From the IMG/VR virus record IMGVR_UViG_3300032311_001127, positions 1-39,437 of that record: a stretch of 39,437 nt of DNA; one strand, 5' to 3'. How positions within the stretch are numbered: position 1 is the first letter of the stretch; each line of letters begins with the position of its first letter. Positions 1,414 through 36,390 of the stretch are shown here, one piece after another. The notes beneath the pieces were generated by a model. That model did no database searches. It saw only the letters and a list, made by a program, of their open reading frames with translations, and was not told the DNA's origin. Both the position numbers and the translations under genes were made by a program. The DNA is from a virus.

Positions 1414-1418
1414 GGCTT
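1399..1418 (-). terminator. short terminator-like hairpin after the tail fibre gene
   Basis: Minus-strand AAGCC / TTGAG / GGCTT forms a 5-bp stem (1404-1418) that includes part of the fibre stop codon and is followed by TTTTGTTAC. The stem is short, so termination is probably partial. It overlaps the -35 box of the lysis promoter. Confidence 0.4.
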
Positions 1419-17400: not shown

Positions 17401-20400
17401 TCCTCTGCAATCTTTGCGCGCTCAGCCTCAGCGGCAATCTTCTTATCTGACGCTGCTTTTTCTTTTGCCTCAGCGGCGTCCCTTGCGGCCTTTTCTCTTG
17501 CTGCCTGGTCCTCACGAACTTTTGCAAGTCGTGCCGCATCGGCAGCGTTAAGTTCCGCAATCTTGTCTTCAAGGGCTTGCTTCTTCTTCTTTTCAATAAT
17601 GGACGGGTCAACGCGAGCCGCCTCGTCGGGGCTTAGGCCAACTTCTGCGCCCTCGTCAATCTGTGCCTCCATTGGTGTTTCTAGGCGCGCTCTTGGGTCC
17701 ATTTCTCTTGCCTTCTTGCGCGCCGCTTCAGCCCGAGTCCCAGCGGTCTTGAGTCGCTCCTCATCCCGCTTAGCGTTTCTGGCCATGTCCCTTTCTTGTT
17801 TTTCACGAATGAGCCCCTCGGTCTGCGCCAGCGTTAGCGTGGCAAGTTCATCGGTACTAACACCAAGTTCTTCTGCTTGACCGATCTCTGCCTCTCGTGG
17901 AGTAATGAGGCCGGAAAGCATATCCGCTCCGGCCGGAGCCTTCTTCTTCCTTGGCTTCTTGTCCTTCTTTGGCTTAGGCTTCTCTTCCTCAACTGGGGCG
18001 TAGGTGTCTGAGGAGTCCTCTTCAATAGAGCCGTCATCCTCAAGATCACTAAAGTCAAAGTCTAGATCCGCTTGTTCCGTTTTAAGAGGAATTACTTTCC
18101 CTTCGCTCTTGATTTTCCCAAGTTGTACTGGACCTCCTTCGCTCTTGATCTTCCCAAGTTGTACTGCGTCGTCTTCTTCCCCTACAAGGTCGCTGAAGTC
18201 AAAGTCAAGATCCGCAGGGTCATCAGGCCCAGCGCCAAAGCCATAAAGTCCTCCGCTTGGCGTTTCGCTAACGGTTGTTGCCGTTCCCTCAATCGGTTCG
18301 GACTCTTGTGCCTTCTTTCTTTTGGCCTTCTCGCGCTCGAAATACGCCCTAGATTGCGCAATAGTTTTTGCAATATTTTCATCCGCAAACAAACGCTCTT
18401 CGCTGTCTGCCATTTGTCCAATATCGTCACCCTCTTCCCCTCTGTAGTATCGAACAAGATGGTCTTCGTATTCACTCTGCTTAAGTTCAGCCAGCCCCTC
18501 ATCATCAAGCCCCTCAGTTCTTCGATTGACCATTCCACGGAATTCGCTTCCTTGCATTCTTTTCGAATCGTACTTATCGTATTTATAGCCATCTTTTGGA
18601 TTTGTTTCGTTGTAGAACGGTTCAACCTTTTTCCAGCAATCAGCACAATATGCGTCTGTCCCATTTGGGTTTACTCCGCCCTCCCGGTCGCTTGTTAGTT
18701 GCCCGCATTGCTGACAACGGTAGGCGTCAAAGTTGACTATATTAGCGTTGCCAATTGGGCCGCCGGAGACGGACACTACCTGACCCTCAAGGACCTGGTC
18801 TAGTTCTGCACTTGATGCGGCTCTTCGCTCTGCTCTCCTAGTTCGAGCAGCCTCTCGCCTAGACTTGGTTCTGTATCCATATTTTCTATCTACGGGGAGT
18901 TGTCCGGAAAGTGTTCCCGGAATGCGACTAAACGATCCGTCTTCATTCCTGGTCATCGTTTGCGGCTGCTCTTCGCCCGGCTGTCTTATTTGGAATTCAT
19001 CTTTCCAAACAAATTCGTTGTCTTCATATGATCCGTAAGAATCCTGGCCTCTTTCCATGGCCAGCCCCCTTGCCGCCCCCTGGTCTGGAATGAGGTCGGT
19101 TATGTCAAATGCCGTGCCATCAATAACTTCCCCGTTTGGTGCCTTAATTCCTTGAGTAAACATGCCAATCCAGACGGCAGTTCCGTCCATCATCATCTCT
19201 AGAATCTTGTCTTTGTTCTCCTCGAACAGGGCAGTCAGGGCTGCGGCAAGGCTCGCCTTACCCGAAATGTCACTCTTTGCAAAGTTAAGAAGACCGCTCT
19301 GTTCATTTTCCAGTTGCGCTCCGCCTACTGTGTATCCCCGCTCTGGCTCCTCTGAGGAAACGCCAAAACCATCCCCACTTCTAATAATCCTTCTTGTCAG
19401 GCCACCTTTCTTTTGATAAGTATCAAATAGACTTTCCGGTGTCTCCTCGGCAAACCTTGGCTCTCTTCCCCTGCCATCATCAAACCCATATTTCGTCGCA
19501 GGTGGCGGACCACTTGGGCCAAGCATTTGCTTTAGGAACTCTAGGGTCTCTCCGCTAAATTGACCGGACTGACCAAAGGAAATTGACCTTCCGGCACCGC
19601 CGTAGTGGCCAGACATTTGAGCCGCTGCATTTGCAATAAATTCACCAACGTACTCATTTAATTTTTCTTCACTTCCCGTTATAACTGCCTCATCAAGAAC
19701 GCCCGGCTCAATGTTTTCAAAAAAGTCCGTGACAACAGATACCATCTTTGTACGCATTTCTTCGCTAACGTTTCCTGATGGTTCCTGAATTTCCTTCGCC
19801 ATCATTAAGATTGCTTTCATGATGGCTCTGTGCACTGGAAGCATTACATCTTTATCTTGGAAAATAGATTCAGCGTTTCCGCCAATAACGCCCATGTGCC
19901 CTGACTCATGTGAGGCAACTGAACCACGGCCAGGAACCGGAAGTAGCGGACCATTGTCCCGCAGTCGCATTTTTTCTGCCAAGTGGATTGCCCCATAAGT
20001 CTCAACTGTTTGATCTGGTCGTCGCACCCCTGCCGTTACGCCCGAATACCCAGGCGGTGTGTCTCGACCCATCCCCGGAACGGGAACGTCTGTACTTGGG
20101 AAAGAGGCAATAGTGACGCCGCGATTTACTGTTGGAATCTGAGCAATACTTTTTACTGCCTCTGTCAATCCTGTTAATACGGCCTTATCATCAGCAACTG
20201 TTTCTCCCTTATGAATAACAGTAATGATTGTTTTTGCTGGGATTTCACCAGTCGACCCTGGTGCAATTCTCCCTAGCGGTGAAGTTCCTGGCTGTTGGGA
20301 AATTTCAGTAGTGGCAAGTGAGAGACCCTGTGATTTAAGGAAATCAATAATGTCTTGAGCAACTGCCCTAGCGTCGTCTGCGGAAAGTTGATACTCAGGA

Positions 20401-23400
20401 GGAACTGATGGTCCGAAGCCTGTTGCGGTCCTTACGGGGAGTCCGCCTGGGCCCAGGCCCCTGCCCTTGTACAGCGGCTGGAGGTGTGGGGGAATGGAAT
20501 CCGCCGTAATCGTCCTCGCCTCTTCCTCAGATAGGGTGGATGCGTCGACAATCGGCCGCATGGTTGGAAGAGGAGTTTCATCATCCCCTCTAAGGTCGCT
20601 GAGTCGACCTTGATCTGGGGAGCCAGAATAACCAAAGATAGTCCTAGTAATGTCACTTAGCGTTGTTGGCGTGGCCAGCATTGGAACTGCCTTCTTAAAC
20701 GACTGTATTCTCTTTGCGATTGCGGCGAGTTGCGCCTTTGCCTCTTCCTCCTCCGCCGCGAGCGACTCAAGTAGTGCAACGTCCCCGCTTATTGCCCCGT
20801 CTGGGTCTTCCATAAGCAGCGAAGCAAGAGTTGGGTAATTCCCAAGGATTTCCATAATGGATGGAACGCCCGCGATAATGTCGGCAAACTTTAGTCTGCT
20901 ATCAGCAGAACCAAGGTCAAACTTCCCCTCTACGGCAGATAGGCCTTTGAGTTTTTCACTCTTTGGGGCAACGCCCTTTCCGGTTTCCCCCGGGATCATC
21001 GACCTTAGTTGGTCTGCATCAAGAACGTTTCTGGCGATTGCCTCAGCAATAACCGCTCTAATTTTTCCACCATCACCACTTGCGATTGTCTCCGCAATAC
21101 CCTTCATGGTGTTAATGTCGCCGACCGCACCTGGCTGGCCAAACGGAACACCAGCAATCTGCGCCTGGCCAGAGCCTGCTGTTTTTTCCGATTTTGTATT
21201 TACCAAAGTTTTTACTGCTTCGGTTAAGGCATCAAGGTTTGGCAGAAGTGGAGTTAAGACATACTTTGCCAGGTCGCCAGAAATTGCCTTTCTCTCATCT
21301 GGGCTTTTCCCAATAATGGAATTCATCGATTTATTTGTTAGAGCCCCCTCCGAAAGGGCGACCATCGTTTCCCTTACGCCTCCGCCTGGGCTTAATAGAT
21401 TTTCAACAATATCTTTAAGCGCGTTAAACTTTTCTTGTGTTTGGGCCGGAAGCGAAGAGTCAACCTTCAAGTCTCGCATTTCGTTTAAGATGCTTAGAAG
21501 ACCAATCACCTGATCTGTGAGGGCGGTCAAAAGAGCGGGGTCGTTTTGCTTGCCTCCGCGCATGTTGTCTGTGATCTTTGCGAATATCGCCGTAATGCCG
21601 ATAGATGTCTGCTCAACGGTTTCAAGTGCCTCGAGGAGATCCTCTCCCTCTGCGGTGACTGTCTGCAACTCGATACCGCGCTCGCCAGTCTTTTCCCTCT
21701 TGACCCTGAGCATTGTGCCCATTGGGCTTCCAAGTCCTTCAGACCTCGGGTCGGTTTCGCTTTCGTCAAAATACTTGCTGCGCGGCTTGAACAAAGAGGA
21801 AACAACACTTCCCTCGAATGGGCTGCTAATTCCAGCAACCCCCCTGCCGGTTGCCCCAATGTTGCTGTCTGGGCTAACGCCTAGTGCTGCGAGTATGCCA
21901 AGGATATCTCCGCTTGCCGAAAGGGCAACAGCAGAATTCTTTATCTCTTCTAGTTGATCTTTAATGTTCTTAAATCTAATGAGTTGCGCTTCTGTTTTTT
22001 CTTCTATGCCATCGAGTACCGTCAACTCTGCCTCAAGGTCTGAAACAAGTTCCTTGTCCGCTCCGGTGCTTTGGGTAATTCTGCCAATGTCTGTTAGGCT
22101 GGCTGGGATTCTCTTTGCTGCCGTGGCCTTCAATCTCAACTGCGCCGTTCTCGCCGCCACATCGTCGTTCACGTCCTTGTCTGTCTGGGCCAATCGAACG
22201 CCCCTGAGGAGCGGCGAGGAACGCATTAGCCCCTTGATAGTTTCCGCAAGTGCCGTACGTGCCGCGCCGACCATCGGCACATCTGGCTCTGGGTCTCCTG
22301 GCATTGTTCGAATTATTGGAGCGCCGCGCCGCTGCTGGCCAGACTTGGTAAACGAATCTTTTGCAGAAAGTTGACTTTCCCCGGTGGAAAGTATTTGCTC
22401 TCTGAATTTTTCTACCTCCGCCTCTGTTCGTTTTCCGGTGGCCTTGAACTTCTCCACCATTCGGTCTGCAATGTCTTTTAGCAAGTCAGAAAAAATCTTG
22501 TCTAGGTTGATGGAGTCAACCATTGGGCCAATGGCCTCAGCCATCCTTCTCCTGCTCTCTCGGAACGCAACAACATAAGCAGCCTCTGCCTCCTTAACCG
22601 CCTTATCTACCTCCGCCTTGCTGCGTATAAATCCGTCCTCGAACTGTGCGGAGGTCCCCTCCCGCTCTCTGGCCTTATCAATCGCCTCTTGCAACTGTGC
22701 GTCGCTTCTGCCCTTCGGGTCTGTATCTCTTCGTCCCGAAGTTTCACCCCTGCTGGTTGGCGCCTTGTATTCGCCAGACTGGCCCCTAGCGCGACTGAGT
22801 TCCGCCTCAAGTTCCGTTGCCCTTCTAATAGCATCGTCTAGGTCTTTTGTTGACGGCAGGCCCTTTCTTGCTTCTGATTCATCCATCCAAACTGTTGGCG
22901 CAGTTGCGGTAACTTGCGCTTTCAAATCTAGATTAGAGCGAATCTTCTCAAAAAGTTCTAGGAGTTTTGGCATTTGGTCGGCAGTAACGCCGAGGGACTT
23001 TGCGTTAAACGCTTCCCTTCCACCCTTCGACATTGAGCGAGCCTCATCGCCACGGGCACGCTCTCTGTCAAGCGCCCCCTCGAGTTGTGCTATTTCTTTT
23101 CCAATGAGCCCTGCTGATTCAACTAGGTTTGCAAAGTTGACAGCCTCTGCTGACTTTGGTGCTGCGCCTTTTGGTGGCCCGGCGACAACCCGATCAAGGA
23201 CACTGGCCTGCTCGTCCTGCAGTTTCTTGAGAGACTCTGCGAGTTGCACAACCCTGAAGTTGCTATCGCTTGCGGTGTCCTCTGCCTTTTGTATTCCGGA
23301 GAAGTTTCCTGGGCCGACAGCATTTGCCTTTTTAATCAGTTCTTCTAGTTGGGCAAACAGTTTTGCCGGGTCAGAGGTGTCAAACTGCTTTGCCTTGTCG

Positions 23401-24299
23401 CCAATCAACGTCCTTACAGACGCAATGAAGGACTCTCTGGCTGCGCGGTCTTCCTTAGAGTAGTCGCCCGTAGGGCTTGGCAATCGAACCTGTTCGGTTC
23501 GCTCTACCTTTCCACCTGGGCCACTCAGTTCGGTTCTTGTTCTCCTTGGGGCAGAGTCTATTGCGGCGCTTGCGTCTTCAATTGGCTTGCGGAGATTTTT
23601 TATCTTTTCTTGCAGTTCCTGCAACTGCTTTTCAGCCGTGGCGATTGCCGAAGGTGAAATCAGATCTCCGTCATAGGGCTTAAGTTCTGTTTCCTTTTGG
23701 CGCTGAAGTATGCCCTCTAGTTCGCTGGCTTCTTTATCGGCGGCGATTCGCTCCTTGCTGGCAGACGCAATCTCTGCGGAAAGCGCCTGTTGCCTTTCAA
23801 GCAAAGTCCTCAGCGCCTCGGTGCGACTTTCTACAAGCCTGAGATTCTCTTCCTCGACCTGCTTAACTCTTTCAGATGAGGCTTCTAGTTCCTTGAGGGC
23901 CTGAAGCCGATCCTGGATTGCCGCTGCGCTGACACTCGCCGCAAGTGCTTCCTGCTCCTGCTGACGCTTGAGTGCTGCTTCTCGCGCGGCTGCAAGGGCT
24001 GTGGCACGCTGCGCGCGATCTGCGTCGTACTGGGCGGTAAGCCTGGCCATTTCGGCGGCCTCGCGTTCGCGGGCAGCCCTTCTCTCTGCTGCGGCTACCT
24101 CTGCGATGCGCCGCTCCTCCGCTGCAACCTTCTCAGCGGCTGCAATCTGCGCAGCAGTTTGAGAGGCCAGCGCTTCAGGCGAAGCCATTGAGTCTAGGGA
24201 GTCTGCAAGACGGTCGAGTTTCGATGCTGACTCGTCGGCTCCGACGACATCGATATTTATCTTTATGTCTTGTTCGTCGTTTCCGCCAAAATCAGCCAT
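8451..24299 (-). CDS. giant tape measure protein with embedded zincin-like and zinc-ribbon motifs
   Basis: An uninterrupted 5,282-residue frame with ribosome site AAAGGA. Order of parts: Ala/Glu/Arg coiled coil (about 20-240); long charged region; zincin-like motif HESGH at 1464-1468 with a possible third ligand in EYVGEFIANA (Glu1549 or Glu1553); four-cysteine zinc ribbon (Cys1862, 1865, 1885, 1888); tandem QLGKIKSEG and DLDFDFSDL repeats (about 2030-2085); K/A/E-rich stretch and Pro-rich linker (to about 2430); a recognisable tape-measure core (about 2800-2890, matching the TIGR02675-type pattern: TPFRF...MKAFGF...ALGQMNSAGRVYQNDMMQLANAGI); hydrophobic segments (about 3105-3260 and 3710-3800); an EF-hand-like loop (DKNKNGIIDD, Asp3895); C-terminal coiled coils. 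Tape measure proteins set tail length and help DNA enter the cell. At about 0.15 nm per residue the full chain would span about 790 nm; if only the part after about 2600 is the ruler, about 400 nm. Confidence 0.93.
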   Translation of the reverse strand: MADFGGNDEQDIKINIDVVGADESASKLDRLADSLDSMASPEALASQTAAQIAAAEKVAAEERRIAEVAAAERRAAREREAAEMARLTAQYDADRAQRATALAAAREAALKRQQEQEALAASVSAAAIQDRLQALKELEASSERVKQVEEENLRLVESRTEALRTLLERQQALSAEIASASKERIAADKEASELEGILQRQKETELKPYDGDLISPSAIATAEKQLQELQEKIKNLRKPIEDASAAIDSAPRRTRTELSGPGGKVERTEQVRLPSPTGDYSKEDRAARESFIASVRTLIGDKAKQFDTSDPAKLFAQLEELIKKANAVGPGNFSGIQKAEDTASDSNFRVVQLAESLKKLQDEQASVLDRVVAGPPKGAAPKSAEAVNFANLVESAGLIGKEIAQLEGALDRERARGDEARSMSKGGREAFNAKSLGVTADQMPKLLELFEKIRSNLDLKAQVTATAPTVWMDESEARKGLPSTKDLDDAIRRATELEAELSRARGQSGEYKAPTSRGETSGRRDTDPKGRSDAQLQEAIDKAREREGTSAQFEDGFIRSKAEVDKAVKEAEAAYVVAFRESRRRMAEAIGPMVDSINLDKIFSDLLKDIADRMVEKFKATGKRTEAEVEKFREQILSTGESQLSAKDSFTKSGQQRRGAPIIRTMPGDPEPDVPMVGAARTALAETIKGLMRSSPLLRGVRLAQTDKDVNDDVAARTAQLRLKATAAKRIPASLTDIGRITQSTGADKELVSDLEAELTVLDGIEEKTEAQLIRFKNIKDQLEEIKNSAVALSASGDILGILAALGVSPDSNIGATGRGVAGISSPFEGSVVSSLFKPRSKYFDESETDPRSEGLGSPMGTMLRVKREKTGERGIELQTVTAEGEDLLEALETVEQTSIGITAIFAKITDNMRGGKQNDPALLTALTDQVIGLLSILNEMRDLKVDSSLPAQTQEKFNALKDIVENLLSPGGGVRETMVALSEGALTNKSMNSIIGKSPDERKAISGDLAKYVLTPLLPNLDALTEAVKTLVNTKSEKTAGSGQAQIAGVPFGQPGAVGDINTMKGIAETIASGDGGKIRAVIAEAIARNVLDADQLRSMIPGETGKGVAPKSEKLKGLSAVEGKFDLGSADSRLKFADIIAGVPSIMEILGNYPTLASLLMEDPDGAISGDVALLESLAAEEEEAKAQLAAIAKRIQSFKKAVPMLATPTTLSDITRTIFGYSGSPDQGRLSDLRGDDETPLPTMRPIVDASTLSEEEARTITADSIPPHLQPLYKGRGLGPGGLPVRTATGFGPSVPPEYQLSADDARAVAQDIIDFLKSQGLSLATTEISQQPGTSPLGRIAPGSTGEIPAKTIITVIHKGETVADDKAVLTGLTEAVKSIAQIPTVNRGVTIASFPSTDVPVPGMGRDTPPGYSGVTAGVRRPDQTVETYGAIHLAEKMRLRDNGPLLPVPGRGSVASHESGHMGVIGGNAESIFQDKDVMLPVHRAIMKAILMMAKEIQEPSGNVSEEMRTKMVSVVTDFFENIEPGVLDEAVITGSEEKLNEYVGEFIANAAAQMSGHYGGAGRSISFGQSGQFSGETLEFLKQMLGPSGPPPATKYGFDDGRGREPRFAEETPESLFDTYQKKGGLTRRIIRSGDGFGVSSEEPERGYTVGGAQLENEQSGLLNFAKSDISGKASLAAALTALFEENKDKILEMMMDGTAVWIGMFTQGIKAPNGEVIDGTAFDITDLIPDQGAARGLAMERGQDSYGSYEDNEFVWKDEFQIRQPGEEQPQTMTRNEDGSFSRIPGTLSGQLPVDRKYGYRTKSRREAARTRRAERRAASSAELDQVLEGQVVSVSGGPIGNANIVNFDAYRCQQCGQLTSDREGGVNPNGTDAYCADCWKKVEPFYNETNPKDGYKYDKYDSKRMQGSEFRGMVNRRTEGLDDEGLAELKQSEYEDHLVRYYRGEEGDDIGQMADSEERLFADENIAKTIAQSRAYFEREKAKRKKAQESEPIEGTATTVSETPSGGLYGFGAGPDDPADLDFDFSDLVGEEDDAVQLGKIKSEGGPVQLGKIKSEGKVIPLKTEQADLDFDFSDLEDDGSIEEDSSDTYAPVEEEKPKPKKDKKPRKKKAPAGADMLSGLITPREAEIGQAEELGVSTDELATLTLAQTEGLIREKQERDMARNAKRDEERLKTAGTRAEAARKKAREMDPRARLETPMEAQIDEGAEVGLSPDEAARVDPSIIEKKKKQALEDKIAELNAADAARLAKVREDQAAREKAARDAAEAKEKAASDKKIAAEAERAKIAEEEAKAAEAAAPKAAEAPKAAEPTKEEFEAQVAADNAARKERVAAQRKARAAARKAAKAEEAAAAATEQSAEASDAVARAETDATASKVEVAQEVAASTERTPIALGAAGVPPTPPTPPRPPAPPTPPAGGDGGDPNDEIVNKSIQALGFGTQLQTLNTMLAELNQSIDKMVEGRVARAAEGGIDLDPAIARQSIIDSNVGGVGQLLNFLNSIANMAKSVRSESGLPTVTVNDKPMQVGAAAAMIGGATVPEGMKPQQLVKIAEEFDALASEVVSMIQAARAGGLKIREETAKAAAGGAGGGSVGGGAAGGGGGDSGKSPMQWGDSGVAAPDLVNIFKGEKDLRNLTNVFRELRPQVAHVRDNIDEVATNLQKQNRAAQDTTRALAGYMNVNTGILKSLKTQVGRAATFLFVQQMGREIAGVVEHLQSGVFKFNQVLENTQVGFNTLFANTLQASTSARNELVPSYNAVGAQIGFVKEQALTFNEALALTSNAAENMVAKIRDIANVTPFRFQPLVEASLKMKAFGFEAVEIPGMINSISNAVAALGGEDEKIDRIAYALGQMNSAGRVYQNDMMQLANAGIAGYRMLADKMLSDLVALKKYTMGELKDLPDYVIDEMKRLQGAISSASFEKSFGGIDTMINTLQDPRRAEGLIRNMAKRGFLLGSVAARAITEGMDKQYQGSADRLSRTMTGALSTIADLSQNFMATAFQPLFNSVRDTIVELGQFMLKSQEITEFVLQVQQNVKGFVDSLKNFGPVLENMAGIFINVFVGGIGAAMEKGSQFGEIFGNIVQKLSAGFSLVGDILNDKVGRGLATAATLGTVFVKAIMANPMIATITLIAVAISGIAEAIKTNFLQIGTVMNIFMESIKNIIQVITDAMATIAKDIGTSAISSFVAGLTAAIVILTPFLQVLLHTFAFFLKILTPFAPILGVLLGLFLAFKTATMMWNIATLALSKPIAAITSAWGGASKAVNQYQEQIKLTAQMHADLQQKKIAAQDYVRGTDGQPLKDKDGRPILNYDPATETVSSAGYPSQGAGEAAQATVNAGTRVRGVLEKIDERLPGPLKGILVSPRERIMGAIKPDFGSGLTLSHNDSAREGHLSTVLTTEKLEKRFDSFKPGGELEGLGKQLSAANILNIPGLDKGELKATANRYSTAWGENLNALVLIEKEVSYVLSEAFRKMQERAKAYKDAVAKDDKGAQAEILQQTIDSEEGRILLPMLTTAKYGKDKKHTDLTKDEISGLMGSFFDGGMSLTPEQMRNVESLPPEVQQIIYNQAGKRVASGNSRLTGGPGGEQEQLDTAVAKGRTVSMIKGGSIGVIDGISKKITSFFDSLNKGTANLVKNIPILQKLQKINMGGAGTGMQQIQQTERGAYRYVNEDGSMGKYVSKEELANRRSMRFTPRGMFSRAFGVGGAMAGIASGASRMAGMGNQAYAIASTLMPGITDMLGSGFKQVMTQKAGFFQGLGNSVGTMLGAGFGSMIPIIGPILGPAIGGMIGELAGNIIDVATRESQASIDAKKRMIAANVALGLDAETAKKAAEADLKIQAYEGRTGSFAGGIPLLVNDIADTTTAAGQQTLEAFKKRINTKEILEQFDKNKNGIIDDGVELQGAIQQANADISEEMGMLYSTDLDALFYKDKAGKYTDTSADAIAKRADAKKRGYVENGGAKERIGLNSDDIAALTARDLARSDIEAASMSESQFQQMFPGFGLDANSLADFNSTKIATEGLEGDRYRKTLIDAGISLETAQNSPILSQVLQTGTDLKSAIALLQKAKDSGAPLDAAAEKLLSYASLLETQNLGSFRDENGNIRTEYQPGMARLLGYDNAQAEATGNAGDDGKFGTGDANEVIGKTFKQIFGFRQVAQGTGIGGGDTMYADMFMEGLKAMGRIDPMEAMLEAGVIQSIEEMVGKSAAEIAEMWKKTTEYFEAFRKRAEELEPKVNLRASRLELMEEFGKDKGYELYDQFEAERAKLATMDKEFAALGGSRELADLEYFNQLMGETTTTRTEPGRRDNGSIIPDSGGVEVEQILPGLLTPEELGKMERLKELQKQILDYEKQKFPIKIKTKAIDSTDEKVRAQAVRDEAALATFRREHQTALDAIQAKVASGKALTRDEVELNKQVLALRDKLIITTTEEVSLGETLAILEKEGINISAKDLHNNDTLLAILAAKAKLQAASNTAGQGAVYWSNLEAKSKVVVTRLAEKQIDLELLRQELYRNTQGGIGMAMAAEAKFQRDNATLIKETNELLLLQESYTKQLANNPYGFNKAELDQINALLAKAPGSMIDAAGASADAAAIQRNTSLLNTMANVAQKSYERIRKAQQKTHDEYIEQLNDQQKAIEDRYRKRGDEQQEQSLLQQLQLAGLAMRSESADPLEAAKSFYEAKNNLAEFYIEKQKNDEVKAIEDEKERYEKQFKENTEAQEAIYSASMDRMKNRFEAVNRVLGDEAIDPADLKNLLLLTMSGKVPTITADYDKTMAALFEQVDKQVAEGKQELALGEGLGTISIGTLTPDGKAYTANPHLVDGNLDSNIKSKYGFDKIYKGSNEESGLLATFMNEILAAGVSFTDSGETYTGAAALAYLTKIKPSRGFEGGAAAGKEEQGRERQGLFEYLTSLLSTTNTFDSSQKLAILAQRTLEQSISDFEKATKVDINMAGLLEADIANEMFEKFIKSMGQTPDEAKIAELKELVRDTYTDVLAAMDAREYEKFANSADPRIGQLTNQVDQIGDSITHLKDSLAGGLTNLDQLLFGTTYNSAAPIPGIDVATEQIDVITAAILDMQTAFEGTMDSLEAYADSLEGPIGAFHQMAADIKSIAGLAGGITLPTTGTAAPTTLTPTPTTGNPYGYKDGEMVNPNRDLPEGMMGAAVMGYWDDALKMIVNELPERLRQQKVSTMPVPQITEFNAELKAKLAEYAATFASSVQTVGINGAQTTVTMYNQMPINITINDAQDMNTAELAAQVEEAVGRALRASGGSYINGTTS
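18044..18215 (-). repeat. nested direct repeats inside the tape measure gene
   Basis: Two 30-base copies differing at one position (18101-18130 and 18137-18166, period 36) encode QLGKIKSEG twice. They are flanked by two near-identical 28-base copies (18044-18071 and 18188-18215) encoding DLDFDFSDL. The nested arrangement looks like recent in-frame duplication in a disordered acidic region. Confidence 0.8.
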
Positions 24300-26725: not shown

Positions 26726-27847
26726 ATGCCCACGCGCTACTGGACTGACGCAGAGCGTAAAGATGCTTTGCACCTCGAATGGAAAGAATTCCACAAAAAG
26801 TACCCAGAGCGAGAGTTTGATTCCTACCGTATAAAGCGTGACCGTCTTCGCCGTGGCGAAACGGATCTCCAAGATGGCAGAAGATTTAATGGGGGTAAAA
26901 ACAAGATGCCCACACCTTCGTCAATGCAGGAATTGAAACAGATGTCCGATATTGGAATGGTGGAGTTTAGAAAGATTGACTACGTTGCCCGCATGGGAAC
27001 CGTAGAGCGCAATCGTGGCGAACTCATTGTTGCTGCGGGAGATTTCCAGTTCCCCTTTGAGGACGGCGACGTGTTCGCGTCGTTCCTCACCTTCCTGGCC
27101 TCAGAGCGGCCCGATCAGGTTGTTTTGACTGGAGACATTCTTGACCTGACTGCCGCGAGCGCATTCGACCGAGATCCTCGTCTGGGGATGTCCATCCAGG
27201 ACGAGTTGCAACATTCGCACAACCGCCTTGCGGAGATCAGGGCCGCCGTCGGGAAGAATGCAAAGATTGTATTCATCTATGGGAATCATGAGGCGCGCAT
27301 GAGTAAGTGGCTTGCGCGCAAGGCCCCAGAACTAGTTGGCATTACTGATATCAACGGGGTTGAAATGCTTTCGCTTTCCTCCCTGCTCAGGCTCGAGCGA
27401 TTAGGGATTGAGCCAGCCGTTTACGAAGGAACGGCATTCTCTGGCCCAGAGAATTTGCGCTCGTACTATCAAATCGCTCCAGACCTCATCGCCACGCACG
27501 GAACATACTCCAAGAACACGGGCGGTGGCGCCAGCATTATGCCGATTGTGGACGCTGCTGGCGTCTCTGTTGTTGGCGGCCACGATCACTCACAGGGCCT
27601 TGCCTTTAAGACCGTAGGCGGCTTTGCGGGAGTCGACGAGCGCAGGCTTGCTGCTATTTCTACGGGCATGATGTGCCGCAGAACCGAACTTGGCTATCTT
27701 GCTCAGCATCAGGTCAGCCGCTGGGCTGCTGGCTTTGCTGTTATCGAGCGCTTTGGCCAGGGTGCCGGAGAGTGGCAGCCAGACTTTGCGTCATGGACTG
27801 GTAGCGAGTTGGTTTGGCGAGGGAAAAGGTACAGCCCAAAGAAGTAA
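26726..27847 (+). CDS. calcineurin-like metallophosphoesterase with N-terminal helical domain
   Basis: A 373-residue protein with ribosome site GGGAGG. Residues 1-60 form a basic helical region (WTDAERKDALHLEWKEFHKKYPEREFDSYRIKRDRLRRGE) that resembles a SANT/HTH-type DNA-binding module. The rest is a metallophosphoesterase: GDFQFP (motif I), VVLTGDILDL (GDxxD), FIYGNHEARM (GNHE), LIATHGTYS and VVGGHDHSQG (GHxH). These residues bind two metal ions. Motif I has Gln where the family normally has His (DxH), which may alter metal binding. Phage members are often annotated as phosphatases or nucleases; the substrate is unknown. It is the last gene of the plus-strand island and ends two bases from the stop of the oppositely oriented connector gene. 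Confidence 0.82.
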   Translation: MPTRYWTDAERKDALHLEWKEFHKKYPEREFDSYRIKRDRLRRGETDLQDGRRFNGGKNKMPTPSSMQELKQMSDIGMVEFRKIDYVARMGTVERNRGELIVAAGDFQFPFEDGDVFASFLTFLASERPDQVVLTGDILDLTAASAFDRDPRLGMSIQDELQHSHNRLAEIRAAVGKNAKIVFIYGNHEARMSKWLARKAPELVGITDINGVEMLSLSSLLRLERLGIEPAVYEGTAFSGPENLRSYYQIAPDLIATHGTYSKNTGGGASIMPIVDAAGVSVVGGHDHSQGLAFKTVGGFAGVDERRLAAISTGMMCRRTELGYLAQHQVSRWAAGFAVIERFGQGAGEWQPDFASWTGSELVWRGKRYSPKK

Positions 27848-28533: not shown

Positions 28534-28871
28534 TATCGATCTACCCTTTTTGCCCCCAGGATGAGGTGGTGGCGAAGCCCTTCCCTAATCACTTCATCAA
28601 CCTGAAACTGGAGGTTGTCCGCCTCAACTAGGTCTGCAATTGTTGGTTGATTTGTTCCGGTCAAATAGGGGATAAAGAAAAGATACCTTGCCTCGGCTGC
28701 CTGGCCTGTAGACGTATAGAGTTGCGATACTGATTCTTTGCTTTCTGGCTGGTAGTGACACTTTCCGGACCAGACAGTAGTCAATTGAACCGTAGGCGTT
28801 CCATCTGCTGCGTGACCAGTTTGCCCAACGCGCTTGATTGTGACTGACGTACTGAACCCAGGCAGGCTCAT
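28533..28871 (-). CDS. head closure / head-tail joining protein
   Basis: A 112-residue beta-rich protein (TSVTIKRVGQTG...GTPTVQLTTVWSGKCHYQPESKESV ... DNLQFQVDEVIREGLRHHLILGAKRVDR). Size, strand pattern and place after the adaptor gene fit the head-closure ring of siphoviruses. The start overlaps the end of the adaptor gene by 4 bases (ATGA) and its stop overlaps the next start. The ring seals the connector after DNA packaging and makes the docking face for the tail. Confidence 0.65.
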   Translation of the reverse strand: MSLPGFSTSVTIKRVGQTGHAADGTPTVQLTTVWSGKCHYQPESKESVSQLYTSTGQAAEARYLFFIPYLTGTNQPTIADLVEADNLQFQVDEVIREGLRHHLILGAKRVDR

Positions 28872-29782
28872 CGAATGTTCATCCCAACGTACTGGTCAAG
28901 GATGGCTGCCGCAGTCCCTGGGATGCCACCAAATCGCACCCCGGGTTCCGGCATGTGGCGCTTCATGCTCATCGAGCCAACGGTTAGTTCGCTCATTGCG
29001 CCAAGGCCCTGCTTATCTAGGGAGTCCTCAGCAATAAGGTGGGCCGCGATAATTGCCGTCGCATCCTTGACGTCGTCTGGAACTTCCGGATAGCCGCTGA
29101 CATAAGTCAAAATTGCTACTGGCTCAATAAGCCCAAGGTTTACCAGCACCGGGAAGAGGGAATATGTAACCGTGGCAAGGCTAGTGACCTCAAAGTAGTT
29201 CCTGTCCTTGTTCACGAAGATGTCGTTCACGGCGAATGCCGCGCTCTGCTGCGCGCTAACGTTCACGGTCAAAGAAACAATCGAACTGATTGGACGACGG
29301 TACGGGTAGATTCTTCTAGTAGCCTGGACCCACTTGTGCCTCTCGGTGTCCTGCCGCAACTGGAAGGACTGCTGGGTATAGGAGTCGACAAGGCTGCTGG
29401 CGACCTTGAGGAACCGCTCCAACTTTCGGCTTCCCATATCAGAGCCGTCAGCATTAGTCAGGACGCCCATTTCGTATTCTCGGAACTGGTCGACGGTAAT
29501 GTAGCCCTGCTCCTGCCCACGGAACGGGGTGGACCAGGAGCCACCGCTGCTCCCGGTTGAGTTCGATGGGCGCCAGGTGTGCCATTGGCCCACGGCAGCG
29601 CCATCGTCAAAATAGTCATAGGCAGAAACAAGCGAAGACAGGGTAATCACAGCACCAAGGTCAACAAAAGAGCCGGTCCGGCTTGTCGCCTCGGCTGAGG
29701 TTGCCGCGCGTCCCAACTGAATGTGGGTATACGAAGCGATGGTCGCTGTGATGCTTGGAACGGGTACTGTTACTTTAATCAT
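28868..29782 (-). CDS. head-tail adaptor (gp6/gp15-like connector), extended N-terminus
   Basis: A 304-residue protein. The helical middle and end carry adaptor-type features: KLERFLKVASSLVDSYTQQSF, a strand-rich insertion (YPYRRPISSIVSLTV), then VPDDVKDATAIIAAHLIAEDS, as in gp6/gp15-like head-tail connectors. This family forms a 12-subunit ring under the portal. It is longer than usual because of a beta-rich N-terminal ~110 residues (HIQLGRAATSAEATSRTGSFVDLG...) that may decorate the neck. No ribosome site precedes ATG 29782; instead TGGACG, 17 bases, TAGTAT and 6 bases lead directly to the ATG, pointing to a leaderless transcript. Confidence 0.72.
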   Translation of the reverse strand: MIKVTVPVPSITATIASYTHIQLGRAATSAEATSRTGSFVDLGAVITLSSLVSAYDYFDDGAAVGQWHTWRPSNSTGSSGGSWSTPFRGQEQGYITVDQFREYEMGVLTNADGSDMGSRKLERFLKVASSLVDSYTQQSFQLRQDTERHKWVQATRRIYPYRRPISSIVSLTVNVSAQQSAAFAVNDIFVNKDRNYFEVTSLATVTYSLFPVLVNLGLIEPVAILTYVSGYPEVPDDVKDATAIIAAHLIAEDSLDKQGLGAMSELTVGSMSMKRHMPEPGVRFGGIPGTAAAILDQYVGMNIR

Positions 29783-30268: not shown

Positions 30269-31510
30269 TTACGCGAGTGTGACGCGGATCTTGCCGTTGA
30301 ACTGTGGTCCCTTGTTGGCCAAGCCGTACATGCAGAACTGAATGTACAAGCGGGTCAAGGCACCAGCAACACCAACTGGAATCTCAAGCGTGGTGATTGC
30401 ATCGTTGCCAAGATATGGCATCGACCAAACATCCTCGTCGATTACGTACATGTCTCGGTAGTTTACCGAAGACACGGTGTACGAACCGATTCCGTCGCCA
30501 GGGATTGCAAGGAGCGGCAACGAGCCGGCTGGCGTGGCAACGCTGCCAAGACCAAGACCTGCGTCAACGCTTCCAGCGCCTGGGTAGCGGACCAATGAGA
30601 GCAACTCGTTCGTGTAGGCAGCGTAATCCGTTGGGCTCAAAACGATGGCCGAAGGATTACCGCCGTTGTTCAGGATGCCAGCAACGGTCTCGTTGATAGC
30701 AGCCGTATACGACGAGGAGCCCTTGCCGGTGATCACGTTGCCTGCGGAGGCAGCGGATCCCAACAACTTGCGCAGACCGTCGAAGCCGTTCACGTCCCAC
30801 GCGCCCAACTCCGTTGCGGCACCGGCACCCGTTGAGGTTGCGGCGGCATTTCCCTGAAGGATCTGCTTCTGCAACTTCTTGGCGATTGCCGTTACTCCGC
30901 CTGACAACTCGGTTGCGAGGCCGTGATTACCGGCCGCGCCACCCTGCTGAATGGCGAACTGCGACTTGAGAGAAATACCACGGCGGGTAGCAAGTACCGC
31001 GACGTTAGTGGTCTGGCGAGCGTAGACGTTCACGTCATCCGTCACCGTGCCCAACTCCGTCTGGAACGCTGCGTCACCGAACGAGGTCTGCTGATTGTAG
31101 GCGTGCACCAAGCCGTTTGCAGGCTCCTTGCGCAGGCGCTCAAACAGCGGGAATCGCTTTACGAACAGGGCGTAGAGCATTGGCTCCAAGTCCTGGCGAA
31201 TAAGTGCAGCACCGCCGCTGGCATCAAGCAACTTAGCGATCTGTGGGTTGGCAACTGCCAAGGTGTTAAGCACCTCGGACGAAGCCTGCTTACCATTCTC
31301 GCGGGAAGCCTGGATGTCGAGCATCTCGGTGATCTCGGCGGTGCCCATCTGCTTGAATCGCTTGCGCAACTCGCGCTGAAGAGCAGCACCCTCTGCTGCG
31401 TCATATGTCTTTGCAGTCGAATCGGTATCCTTACCGATTACCGCAGGGGTGTGGGAAAGAGCCTCAAGGCCCTTCTCCAGATCCTGCAACTTTTCCTTAA
31501 TCTCACTCAT
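30269..31510 (-). CDS. major capsid protein, HK97 fold
   Basis: A 413-residue protein right after the protease gene, with ribosome site AGGA. Residues 1-100 are a charged coiled coil (EIKEKLQDLEKGLEAL ... LQRELRKRFKQMG) like the delta/scaffolding region removed in HK97-type capsids. From about 105 the pattern fits HK97-fold subunits: GGAALIRQDLEPMLYALFVKRFPLFERLRKEPANG (E-loop start), ATRRGISLKSQFAIQQGG, a spine-helix region, NPSAIVLSPTDYAAYTNELL (P-domain) and YIQFCMYGLANKGPQFNGKIRVTL at the end. It forms the icosahedral shell. A strong terminator follows. Gene order and pattern agree. Confidence 0.9.
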   Translation of the reverse strand: MSEIKEKLQDLEKGLEALSHTPAVIGKDTDSTAKTYDAAEGAALQRELRKRFKQMGTAEITEMLDIQASRENGKQASSEVLNTLAVANPQIAKLLDASGGAALIRQDLEPMLYALFVKRFPLFERLRKEPANGLVHAYNQQTSFGDAAFQTELGTVTDDVNVYARQTTNVAVLATRRGISLKSQFAIQQGGAAGNHGLATELSGGVTAIAKKLQKQILQGNAAATSTGAGAATELGAWDVNGFDGLRKLLGSAASAGNVITGKGSSSYTAAINETVAGILNNGGNPSAIVLSPTDYAAYTNELLSLVRYPGAGSVDAGLGLGSVATPAGSLPLLAIPGDGIGSYTVSSVNYRDMYVIDEDVWSMPYLGNDAITTLEIPVGVAGALTRLYIQFCMYGLANKGPQFNGKIRVTLA

Positions 31511-31526
31511 GATTTATTTCCTTCTT

Positions 31527-33335
31527 TCAGTCCTGCGCTTCGAGAACGCGCTGGATATATGGATGCAACCACGTAGCGTCGCTATGTCGCTGCTCCGTAG
31601 CCTTGCTAATCAATTTGCGCCCAACCGGTTCGGCCGACAAGCGGTCGATAACGTTCATGGCGCTCTCCAAATCCTTCTCAACCTTGGCCTTCGCGGCAGC
31701 GAGTTCGGTGATCTCCTTGCGGAGAGTCTCCACCTCCTGCTGAGCCGTCTTGGCTGCATCGAGTGCTGACTTGGCGACCTCAACGATCTTACCGATATCG
31801 TCCACGTCGGAAGACTTCTCGGCTTCGCTCAGGTCTACAATGGGCTCAACGCCCTGGTCCTCGGAAGCCAGTTCGGCGACAGGCTCCTCGATAACCGCAT
31901 CAATAGGCGCAGCCTCTGCAGGGGCAGCCTCAGCGGCGACCTCTTCTGCAACTGGCTCCGCAGCAACTGGCTCTGCAACTGGAGCCTCGGCCTCACCCTC
32001 AACAGGCGTTCCGATCTCTAGTGCAAGGCGGTTGCTAGTTGCCGAAGCAAGAACCTCTGCAACAACCTCTGCAACGTCAGCCTCTGAGACCTCTCGGTAC
32101 TCGTCAACTACGGCATGGGCTTCTGCGTGGGCTTCTTCGGCTGCTGGCTCAACGGCAGGCTCAACGGCTACCGCTGGCTCGGCCTCAGGAGCGACCTCTG
32201 GGGTCTCCTCTGCGACCTGTGGGGCAATCTCTTCAGTCATGCTCTTCTCCGTCTCTGCTTCATTCTGGTCATCGGCCTCTGGCGCCAACGAAGCGCGCAA
32301 CTGCCAAGACCACTTCTTATGCTTATCCTGGCGCTCTGCCAAGAAGTTAGCCGTACCCTGCTCATTGAGGTCCGTGGCAGCCTTAAAGGCAACCATGATG
32401 TTCTCAATCAACTTTTCATTAGCAGCATAAAGATCTGCCGCTAGGGCTTCCGCATCGTAGCCTTCCGAGCGCGAGGTCTCGTTGGCCATCTCTGCAAGAT
32501 CCTTCAACTCGGCAGGTGCCGGTGAGTTCAACTTGCGAAGATTTTCTGCAATTGGGTCCAGGGACGCGTGTACGTCCGTATAGATCTCCTCAAACAGTTC
32601 GTGATACGCAGAAAAATGCTCGCCGGTGACGTTCCAATGGGCGCCATGGGCCTTAAGGTAGAACGCGGTTGTCTGCGAAAGCAGCGTATAGAGGGAACCG
32701 ACAAGCGGCGCCTTATCGGCAGCCTGCTGGCCCTCAACCTCAACGGCCTTTACCGCATCAGTAAGGTCTCGGATGATGGCGTGCTCAATTTCGTTCTCTT
32801 CTGGCTTTGAGCGCAGGCTCTTCACAGCATTGTGAAGATAAGAACGCTGATTTGCTGGAATACCAACAACGCTGGCCTCAAGGAGGCGAACCTTGTTAAT
32901 AACGTAGGTGTCAATGCCGCTCTTCTCGTCGCGCTTCTTGTCGGCATTCTCAACACGAGCGCCGATAGAAAGCCCCAACTTGACTCCGCGCTTGATGGCA
33001 CGGTAAGCCTGCATTGCCTGAGGGTTCTCATCCTCTGGGCAAACCTTCACGTCGATATCGAGGTCATAGACCTCTTCGCCGGTCTCTTCGTCCATGCGCT
33101 TAACGATGCGAGCATCGGTCGCAGAGCCAAAAAGGTCCTCGGGGACGTTGTAGTTGTGGTTGAGGAAGACGGTCATATTCTGCTTGGCGGTGTCCTCCAT
33201 GCTCTTCAGCGCGGACATTGCCATCGCGTCACCGTGAAGGTCGCGGATGGTCGAAGAGGTGGTTCCGGACACGTAGCGGTCGCCGCTCTCGGTTTCGTAA
33301 GCCTTAAGAGTTCCGGTAAAAAGTTTAAAATCCAC
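31527..33335 (-). CDS. capsid maturation protease fused to a Dps (ferritin-like) domain and a scaffold-like tail
   Basis: A 602-residue protein starting at GTG 33335, six bases after GGGGGGA; the in-frame ATG at 33377 lacks a ribosome site. Residues 1-175 are an HK97-type prohead protease with His60 (LNHNYNVPEDLFGS), Ser123 (KLGLSIGARV) and Glu153 (LLEASVVGIPANQRS). Residues about 205-350 are a complete Dps-like four-helix domain: AHWNVTGEHFSAYHELFEEIY, LDPIAENLRKLN, and KWSWQLRASL at the end. The ferroxidase ligands His233, His245, Asp260 and Glu264 have exactly the Dps spacing (12, 15, 4). Residues about 350-530 are Glu/Ala/Pro-rich and disordered, followed by a coiled coil (AKTAQQEVETLRKEITELAAAKAKVEKDLESAMNVIDRL) like a capsid scaffold. 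The protease should cut scaffold and capsid termini inside the prohead; the Dps role is unknown. Confidence 0.88.
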   Translation of the reverse strand: MDFKLFTGTLKAYETESGDRYVSGTTSSTIRDLHGDAMAMSALKSMEDTAKQNMTVFLNHNYNVPEDLFGSATDARIVKRMDEETGEEVYDLDIDVKVCPEDENPQAMQAYRAIKRGVKLGLSIGARVENADKKRDEKSGIDTYVINKVRLLEASVVGIPANQRSYLHNAVKSLRSKPEENEIEHAIIRDLTDAVKAVEVEGQQAADKAPLVGSLYTLLSQTTAFYLKAHGAHWNVTGEHFSAYHELFEEIYTDVHASLDPIAENLRKLNSPAPAELKDLAEMANETSRSEGYDAEALAADLYAANEKLIENIMVAFKAATDLNEQGTANFLAERQDKHKKWSWQLRASLAPEADDQNEAETEKSMTEEIAPQVAEETPEVAPEAEPAVAVEPAVEPAAEEAHAEAHAVVDEYREVSEADVAEVVAEVLASATSNRLALEIGTPVEGEAEAPVAEPVAAEPVAEEVAAEAAPAEAAPIDAVIEEPVAELASEDQGVEPIVDLSEAEKSSDVDDIGKIVEVAKSALDAAKTAQQEVETLRKEITELAAAKAKVEKDLESAMNVIDRLSAEPVGRKLISKATEQRHSDATWLHPYIQRVLEAQD

Positions 33336-33415
33336 AGTAATCCCCCCGGGCTGCTTTGGCGACTCTAAGGGTCGCATCTACGTAAGTATCATCATCCCGT
33401 CAACCCGTAGTTGAC

Positions 33416-34185: not shown

Positions 34186-36390
34186 ATGGCAGACGAACGC
34201 CCCAGTTTTTTGGATCGACTGCTTGGCCGGACTGAGCAAGTTGTAACTGCGCCCAAATCCGAAATTGGAGTAATCCCGGACTGGGAGAACAGCCCGTACG
34301 CCCGTGCCGCCGTTGGCCAGGGTGGCGTAATGAAGCGCAGCGTTGCACAGTTGCGACGTTGGTCCAGAAACAATCCGTGGCTGCGCGCGGCAATTAACCT
34401 GCGCCGCCAGCAGGTGAGCCGTGCCCGTTGGGACATTGTGGATCTTGACGGCAACTCAAAGCCAAATCAAAAGATTGTTGACGATTTGCGCTACATGTTC
34501 CGCCACCCAAACTCACGAGGCGATTCATTCCGTTCGTTTATTGAGCCGGTGGTTGAAGACTTGCTCGTCCTCGATCAGGGTTGTATTGAAGTTGAGTTGA
34601 CGCGCGGTTCGCGCGTGGGCGCGACTGGCTCTAAGAAAATTGCCAACCTGTGGCCAAAAGACGCAGGATTTATTGCATTTGACCAGGACTGGGACGGGAC
34701 GAAGAAGAACGAGCCGCGCTATTTCGAACTAGATGCGACCGGGAAGATTGTTGCCGAGTATCGCAACGAAGAAATGGTTGTCTTGATTCACAACCCGGTA
34801 ACGTATTCGCCGCTTGGTCTTTCGCCGCTAGAAGTTCTTGCTGAGACTATTGAGGCCGACCTCGCCGCCGCTGCCTATAACTCAAAGTCCGTCATGCAGG
34901 CCGCGCCTCCGGGAATCATTGACCTCGGCGAGGGCATTCGCCCCGACCAGGTTGATCAGTTCAAGGCGTATTGGGAAGCAGAAATCGGCGGCAAGAGCAT
35001 GGTTGCAATTGTTGGCGGCGGCAAGGGCGTTAAGTGGACGCCACTTGGTGCGTCAAACCGCGATATGCAATTTATGGAGTGGCAGATTTATCTGGCGCGA
35101 AAGATTTGTGCAGTGTTTGGCGTTCAGCCACAAGACATCGGTATTTCTTTTGACGTCAACCAGAGCACCGCAGAGGTTGGCGCAGCGTTTACTGCCGACA
35201 ACGGCATCGCGCCACTGCTCGACCTTATCGCTGAGTACCTAACCCGCGAAATCATTTGGCGCTTTGACGAGACCCTGCGCTTTGCCTACACCGATGTCGG
35301 TCGCGCAAGTCAGTCCGCAATTGCCGAGTACTACAAGGCTGCGCTTGGCGGCCTTCCGTGGCTTCGCATCAATGACGCGCTTAAGGAGCGTGGTCAGGAC
35401 GGCATTGGCGAGTACGGTGACGAGATTTGGGTAATGTCGCCAAAGGGCTACATGCCAATGTCTCTCTATATTGAATATCTTGAGCAAACATTGCTTGGCG
35501 AGAAGCCAGACGACGAGCCCGAAGGCGAAGGCCCAGATGAAGATGGCCCAGATGAAAATGGCGGCGGCGAGGGGGAACCATCCCCCGAGGACGCAACAGA
35601 CCCAGAGACAATGCGTCCGGAAAACCCACAGATGGGACCGAACCAGCAACCAGCAGACCAGAAGGCCGCTGGTAGGCCTGTAATCACGTGCGACATCGAT
35701 GGAACGCTAACAACGCCAAGCGGCCCAATCGAAAACACTGTTGATTTCTTGCTTGACCAGGCGGATGAGTTCGCAATCTACATTCTTACCGCACGAAGCG
35801 AAAGCAAGCGCAGCGAAACAGAGGCAATGCTAAGCAAGTTTGATGTTCCATACGATCGACTCATCATGAACGACACGGGCGAGCCGCAACCCGTGTTCAA
35901 GAAGCGCGTGATGAAAGAGTTGATGGCGAATAACGACATTGCTTTCGCAATTGAAAATGACGAGGATGTTTTGGCCGAGTATCGAAAACTTGGCGTGAAG
36001 ACAATGACTCCGGCCCAGGTTCCTGATGATCCAGAGGATGCAGAGAAGGGATTGCTTAAGTCGGTTAACCTCACCGTTCCAAATGGCGTCAAGGTTGAGG
36101 CTGCTCGCGGTCTTGTCTGGCGCAAGCAGTATGGTCGCGGCGGCATCGGCCCGGGCCAGCGAACTGCACGAATGCTTATTGGCAACAGGATGACAATTGC
36201 TCGCGTCAAGAAAATGGGCGCCTATCTTGCTCGCCACGAAGTAGACAAGAATGGCGAAGGGTTTAGCCCAGGCGAACCAGGATACCCATCAGCGGGGAGA
36301 ATTGCATGGGCCCTGTGGGGTGGCGATGCCGGAAAGTCGTGGGTTGCCAAGGTAATGCGCTCGGTTGAAGCAGAAGAGCGCAAAGAATAG
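34186..36390 (+). CDS. portal protein fused to a HAD phosphatase-like domain and a C-terminal WGGD domain
   Basis: A 734-residue protein. Residues 1-440 are an HK97-family portal: NPWLRAAINLRRQQVSRARWDIVD, a DDLRYMFRHPNSRGDSF segment, YSPLGLSPLEVLAETIEADLAAAAYN, IYLARKICAVFGVQPQDIGI and LIAEYLTREIIWRFDETLRF. The portal is the 12-subunit DNA gate at the capsid vertex. An acidic Gly/Pro linker follows (about 445-495). Residues about 498-610 are a HAD-like phosphatase with CDIDGTLT (Asp503 and Asp505), ILTARSE, a lysine region and FAIENDEDVLAEYRKLG, closest in feel to the 3'-phosphatase half of polynucleotide kinase. Residues about 650-730 (MTIARVKKMGAYLARHEVDK ... GYPSAGRIAWALWGGDAGKSW) form a domain that also occurs in other phage head-gene proteins, of unknown function. 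The portal call is strong; phosphatase activity is inferred. Confidence 0.88.
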   Translation: MADERPSFLDRLLGRTEQVVTAPKSEIGVIPDWENSPYARAAVGQGGVMKRSVAQLRRWSRNNPWLRAAINLRRQQVSRARWDIVDLDGNSKPNQKIVDDLRYMFRHPNSRGDSFRSFIEPVVEDLLVLDQGCIEVELTRGSRVGATGSKKIANLWPKDAGFIAFDQDWDGTKKNEPRYFELDATGKIVAEYRNEEMVVLIHNPVTYSPLGLSPLEVLAETIEADLAAAAYNSKSVMQAAPPGIIDLGEGIRPDQVDQFKAYWEAEIGGKSMVAIVGGGKGVKWTPLGASNRDMQFMEWQIYLARKICAVFGVQPQDIGISFDVNQSTAEVGAAFTADNGIAPLLDLIAEYLTREIIWRFDETLRFAYTDVGRASQSAIAEYYKAALGGLPWLRINDALKERGQDGIGEYGDEIWVMSPKGYMPMSLYIEYLEQTLLGEKPDDEPEGEGPDEDGPDENGGGEGEPSPEDATDPETMRPENPQMGPNQQPADQKAAGRPVITCDIDGTLTTPSGPIENTVDFLLDQADEFAIYILTARSESKRSETEAMLSKFDVPYDRLIMNDTGEPQPVFKKRVMKELMANNDIAFAIENDEDVLAEYRKLGVKTMTPAQVPDDPEDAEKGLLKSVNLTVPNGVKVEAARGLVWRKQYGRGGIGPGQRTARMLIGNRMTIARVKKMGAYLARHEVDKNGEGFSPGEPGYPSAGRIAWALWGGDAGKSWVAKVMRSVEAEERKE

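Follow-up and report, generated by a model that had tools for sequence, protein, structure and literature searches.

The window, by which I mean the whole analysed stretch of 39,437 nucleotides, carries on its minus strand a single frame in which a prohead protease domain, a Dps domain and a scaffold-like tail follow one another, with the major capsid gene just downstream. In its longest form this open reading frame (P0001, 31527-33377) has 616 amino acids, and residues are numbered on it throughout, which is the numbering of the first-pass annotation plus 14. The features of the locus are as follows.

31527..33335, minus strand: protease-Dps-scaffold fusion gene, 602 aa, GTG start (from the open reading frame list, Pfam, PHROG and the starts of relatives)
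33341..33347, minus strand: Shine-Dalgarno-like GGGGGGA ahead of the GTG start, its position conserved in relatives
32817..33335, minus strand: S78 (HK97-type) prohead protease domain, P0001 residues 15-187 (PF04586 and phrog_80, 1.6e-11)
32721..32816, minus strand: acidic linker, residues 188-219, of low model confidence
32280..32720, minus strand: Dps domain, a four-helix bundle with short BC helix, P0001 residues 220-366 (Pfam, PHROG, PDB, AF2 and Foldseek)
32637..32639, minus strand: codon of His247 (formerly His233), ferroxidase ligand by Dps spacing and relatives
32601..32603, minus strand: codon of His259 (formerly His245), ferroxidase ligand on the same grounds
32556..32558, minus strand: codon of Asp274 (formerly Asp260), ferroxidase ligand on the same grounds
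32544..32546, minus strand: codon of Glu278 (formerly Glu264), ferroxidase ligand on the same grounds
31527..32240, minus strand: scaffold-like tail, residues 380-616, charge -40, pI 4.1, with a conserved C-terminal segment and a predicted internal ATG at 32240
32247..32250, minus strand: putative internal Shine-Dalgarno GGAG, 6 nt ahead of the internal ATG
30269..31510, minus strand: major capsid protein (SU10_MCP family), 16 bp downstream of the fusion gene (PF17236, E 7.3e-7; phrog_752, 1.1e-14)
28868..29782, minus strand: head-tail adaptor (phrog_442, E 2.7e-15)
34186..36390, plus strand: portal, divergently transcribed (PF04860, E 1e-40)

The fusion genes of relatives begin at the same spot with a purine-rich site upstream, and the GTG at 33335 is most likely, to judge from this comparison of start codons, the true start. 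As this GTG stands behind GGGGGGA just as in the relatives, the coordinates and residue numbers of the first-pass annotation would be correct. The protease part matches Peptidase_S78 in Pfam (PF04586, E 3e-8, 34.4 bits against a cut-off of 21 bits), head maturation protease families are matched among the PHROGs profiles, and the Pfam matches of the fusion protein to Peptidase_S78 and Ferritin both exceed the curated cut-offs. H74 and S137 form invariant alignment columns among relatives, and from knowledge of the family I take them to be the catalytic His and Ser of the S78 protease.

The portal carries in its C-terminal part an HAD/PNK-phosphatase-like domain (phrog_415, 1.5e-17, motif DIDGTL) and a phrog_2859 domain (6e-19). 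Further along the minus strand, a frame of 5282 aa (8451-24299) matches a tape measure in the second half of its length (TMP_3, 3.8e-11), and if the whole frame is a tape measure the tail would be very long, while a 2341-aa protein (1417-8442) ends in an S74 endosialidase-type chaperone domain and is a probable tail fibre. A metallophosphoesterase gene (phrog_221) lies on the plus strand at 26726-27847, amid the minus-strand head-tail genes.

The first-pass annotation had claimed that the capsid protease carries a complete Dps ferroxidase domain, and at the level of sequence profiles and predicted structure the presence of a full Dps domain is confirmed. Residues 231-364 match the Ferritin family (PF00210, E 1.6e-12), phrog_3636 (a Dps family) is matched with E 1.4e-25, and a phmmer search of the PDB gave 47 sequences at E<=0.001, mostly named Dps or ferritin-like and including some engineered Dps chimeras, the best being a Dps (2.3e-21). 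For the structure prediction, the absence of a Dps fold had been named beforehand as the refuting outcome. The AlphaFold2 monomer model, built from 19 relatives, shows helices A-D (residues 220-249, 255-282, 309-336 and 340-364) and the short BC helix (291-298) that is typical of, and diagnostic for, Dps, with pLDDT mostly 75-90 in the helical region and dips to 53-65 around the BC helix. Foldseek placed the Pseudomonas aeruginosa Dps 8ff9 first (E 1.1e-8, target TM 0.85), and all of the 50 best PDB matches listed are Dps-family chains.

The four proposed ligands, H247-H259-D274-E278, are spaced 12/15/4, which is exactly the Dps spacing, as the first-pass annotation had it. Relatives, for which a lack of these residues had likewise been named as a refuting outcome, retain them as well: all four (His, His, Asp, Glu) are present in 72 of the 72 genuine phage Dps domains compared, although KAHGAHW(N) was a search pattern, which favours H247 by construction and D274/E278 in part (in the search limited to the best 80 of 477), H259 being unbiased. 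In the phage Dps alignment the four fall within the 20 invariant columns of 142, the mean top frequency being 0.65. Among carriers, pairwise dN/dS (NG86, with dS often >1) is 0.04-0.13 for the Dps part and 0.00-0.12 for the protease, and the Dps domain is, as far as these comparisons tell, under purifying selection. A degenerate relic is ruled out by the invariant ligands together with the dN/dS of the Dps part. As the conserved iron site spans two subunits, it also argues that the Dps domains form at least dimers.

The composition of the domain bears on another suggestion of the first-pass annotation, namely that Dps might organise DNA. The family name, and a Tudor-like domain found in the same slot of related phages, would suit DNA binding or compaction in the head after the manner of a nucleoid protein. 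However, the Dps domain is acidic (pI 5.0, charge -9), it lies between acidic linkers and has no Lys-rich tail, and there are cellular Dps that protect DNA but do not bind it, as the title of PDB entry 1o9r states. The acidity of domain and linkers counts against DNA binding and favours a ferroxidase that protects without it, and a DNA-organising role appears extremely improbable.

Relatives came from one search that yielded 43 loci and another taken as the best 80 of 477, and their architectures were assigned by profile scans. In the type of the window (A) the order is S78 protease-Dps-scaffold, the portal being encoded on the other strand and the genes for capsid and adaptor following downstream. 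The order is reversed in type B, where Dps precedes S78 and is itself preceded either by a short N-terminal part (L037-L041, L074, L077, L080, L090) or by phrog_2859, in some cases with a Tudor domain (L079, L083, L101, L110). Type C reads HAD phosphatase-Dps-S78 (L089 and L107, with which L096 groups), type D joins Dps to a different protease family (phrog_3270; L072, L073), type E is a 1740-aa portal-like protein uniting phrog_2859, portal/protease-like parts and Dps (L075:1711-6933), type F is a Dps-phrog_19463 gene immediately after a protease gene (L108), and type G comprises free Dps genes. Portal and/or capsid genes adjoin the fused types that were examined. Dozens of distinct proteins, drawn from many metagenomes, show the fusion, which rules out an assembly chimera or frameshift.

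Among the free-standing genes, that at L121:2469-3038 lies close downstream of a major capsid gene and that at L100:5992-6465 directly after a portal gene, L112, L113 and L094 being alike by layout, and the free Dps genes of L042 and L118 adjoin an exonuclease gene.

In a tree of 140 columns, the deep forks of which lie beyond its resolution, the phage Dps domains form a clade of their own, set apart from the sampled cellular Dps with 98/98 support, and types A, B, C and D fall into separate sub-clades. Because Dps occurs on both sides of the protease, there were at least two joining events, and four or more are likely. The joining to head proteins in several architectures, taken with the sub-clades, looks like selection for coupling to the protease rather than for one geometry; that Dps is fused with head proteins in several different arrangements is newly described here. 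In the reversed type the Dps helices are clear in the predicted structure, built from 9 sequences, and the protease part is poor; a Shine-Dalgarno sequence for an internal protease-only start was not seen in the two sequences of this type that were inspected.

The slot occupied by Dps is variable among relatives. In L015 and L017 the protease domain is identical in amino acids to that of the window, without Dps, and a Hva1_TUDOR domain takes its place (5.7e-8 in L015). L022 and L029 were assigned to this Tudor type by resemblance. In L013, whose protease is nearly identical to that of the window, and in L021 the slot is empty, while L033 has Dps and Tudor together according to Pfam; a VExEGQ-like linker motif is retained in L013 and L015, both of which lack Dps. 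With Tudor, Dps or nothing beside the same protease, gains or losses must be frequent, and the domain should be dispensable for head assembly in that background.

These relatives weigh on the idea that the Dps oligomer is an assembly device, a symmetric core or multimeriser that sets the copy number of the protease and nucleates the prohead, with iron chemistry as a secondary matter. Dps cages are 12-mers of 9 nm (PMC11202242) and the domain is placed between protease and scaffold, as would befit such a device, yet phages with the identical protease do without it, Dps stands on either side of the protease depending on the phage, and invariant catalytic ligands would be unnecessary. I regard the device as distinctly unlikely, and the 12-subunit core for shell assembly put forward in the first-pass annotation is, as a requirement, not supported in view of L015, L017 and L013. 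The Dps domain would rather be optional cargo, placed in a swappable slot and unnecessary for building the head.

The Hva1_TUDOR domain fills or joins the Dps slot beside prohead proteases in L015:5001-6677, L022, L029, L033, L079 and L140, the last being the cultured Roseobacter phage CRP-811, where Pfam places it within a protease-capsid polyprotein. The two kinds of domain found on the portal of the window also precede Dps in other proteases (HAD in L089/L107, phrog_2859 in L079/L083/L110). The same kinds of domain on portals and on proteases suggest that phages share a pool of head-associated cargo modules.

Where the scaffold part meets Dps, or the domain that replaces it, an ATG or GTG stands behind a Shine-Dalgarno sequence of at least 4 bases in 30 of the 30 relatives with a candidate start, compared with 17% of other in-frame ATG/GTG codons; as two of the five patterns in the scan were added after such a sequence had been seen, the peptides encoded upstream favour Shine-Dalgarno sequences and the contexts are related, this evidence is only suggestive. 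An internal start probably makes the scaffold alone, by analogy with Nu3 in lambda. With scaffold supplied in excess in this way, Dps would be carried only by the protease-bearing copies.

Prohead proteases act inside the prohead. The order of domains in one frame places Dps between prohead protease and scaffold-like tail, as first annotated, and as both neighbours are prohead-associated, the domain should be carried into the prohead; this delivery, also proposed in the first-pass annotation, can be well inferred from a protease/scaffold fusion that recurs in other architectures. The C-terminal scaffold part would take the fusion protein into the prohead core, alongside extra scaffold from the internal start, and the Dps domains would pair there, the iron site needing two subunits, and probably form a cage. 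During maturation the protease would degrade the scaffold and sever the linkers, after which Dps would remain in the head as a compact assembly, and the retained Dps would oxidise Fe(II) with H2O2 and so spare the packaged DNA from Fenton damage. I tentatively favour this reading of the ferroxidase as cargo that detoxifies Fe(II)/H2O2 near packaged DNA, while holding it to fall slightly short of an even chance.

Once cut free, a 9-nm cage should be too large for the capsid pores. In the best-studied HK97-type phages, however, the protease destroys itself and its fragments exit the head, so that the Dps part could be lost too, which counts against the cargo reading. Also against it are the variable fifth ligand (E263 is Glu in the window, but only 32% of phage Dps have E at this position) and the location of some related free-standing Dps genes beside replication genes, a setting that better suits a function in the cytoplasm. 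Inspection by eye revealed no cleavage motif common to the Dps linkers and the capsid protein.

Alternatively, the fusion precursor may clear iron and peroxide in the infected cell, before or without encapsidation. Such a defence of the host against reactive oxygen species was proposed for phage ferritin/Dps in the texts of Kavagutti et al. 2019 (PMC6802176) and Benler et al. 2021 (PMC8008677), and free-standing relatives exist, some of them beside an exonuclease gene. However, a free gene would serve this purpose better, and the repeated fusion to head proteins, with some free copies beside portal or capsid genes, points to the capsid; I consider the host-side role unlikely. Injection has also been proposed for domains that are attached to portal or MuF proteins (PMC5512222), and since other enzymatic domains occupy the same slots, the released Dps could enter the next host with the DNA like capsid-packaged polyvalent proteins. 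A folded 9-nm cage should not pass the tail, though, and unfolding would be needed, so I strongly doubt an injected effector.

The reading as detoxifying cargo may extend further: the heads of several uncultivated lineages could be 'encapsulin-like' particles that detoxify iron and peroxide, HK97-fold shells in which the Dps loaded by protease or scaffold stays in the virion and guards the genome, as one of several interchangeable cargo domains of the capsid interior. This wider proposal is possible, though on balance doubtful. Phage ferritin and Dps have hitherto been read as host stress-defence genes, whereas their joining to the protease points to the particle interior, and the fusion suggests that certain phages equip their particles with a device for detoxifying iron and peroxide, and that virions can bring along a protection of their DNA against oxidative damage. 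It further connects phage heads with ferritin-loading encapsulins in a way that can be tested, and it points to the slot as an exchangeable natural cargo site in phage heads.

The fusion was not found in isolate phages (tblastn at 1e-5, four queries, 50,697 records), nor did these records contain a match to the capsid protein of the window. A match between phage S-CBS1 and the fused protein turned out to lie in the phrog_2859 region that precedes a protease-capsid polyprotein, and no ferritin domain is present there. A host was not found: the sole match in the genome collection is a phage-like contig that had been placed in a MAG by binning, and the virus record names none. In UniProt, A0A6J5RFH1 from an uncultured Caudovirales phage is 69% identical over 363 columns and very probably of the same fusion kind; this entry and similar ones bear the automatic names 'DNA-binding protein Dps' or 'Prohead protease', and an account of the fusion was found neither for them nor in a literature search that lay mostly outside subscription papers.

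Bacterial Dps, for example P. aeruginosa PA0962 (PDB 8ff9), have the same fold, BC helix and H/H/D/E ferroxidase ligands, but cellular Dps is a free protein, whereas the Dps of the window lies inside a head protease, belongs to the phage clade and has a fifth ligand that varies in relatives. Free-standing Dps are likewise encoded by Lactobacillus phage Semele, Synechococcus phage S-SRM01 and Gratiaviridae, but as separate genes described for host stress tolerance and unjoined to capsid proteins. Host tolerance was suggested for free phage Dps genes in the texts of Benler et al. 2021 (PMC8008677) and of the Lactobacillus phage paper (PMC6669764), and ferritin is listed among ROS-defence genes of freshwater phages in that of Kavagutti et al. 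2019 (PMC6802176); a term search of these three texts, supplements aside, gave no mention of joining to a protease.

The C/Nu3 gene of lambda likewise encodes a protease with a C-terminal scaffold and has a scaffold-only internal start, the latter being probable in the window. Lambda C is of another protease family and is not known to carry a cargo domain. The lambda initiator complex consists of portal, C protease and Nu3 scaffold (PMC3224144). Polyvalent proteins and MuF/portal fusions (PMC5512222) show extra domains on head-associated phage proteins, as here, but those domains are conflict effectors, and the main text mentions neither Dps nor ferritin. Encapsulins with encapsulated ferritin, including the Dps-like IMEF, also hold ferroxidase cargo in an HK97-fold shell (PMC11202242); in them the cargo is brought in by a short targeting peptide and iron is stored by the shell, whereas here protease/scaffold would do the loading and DNA fills the shell. 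An encapsulin is a stand-alone HK97-fold nanocompartment with peptide-targeted cargo and not a tailed-phage head, while the Dps of the window lies inside the protease, in a tailed-phage cluster with portal, adaptor and tape measure. By analogy of function and not by kinship of membership, the ferritin-cargo encapsulins are thus the nearest counterpart of the fusion.
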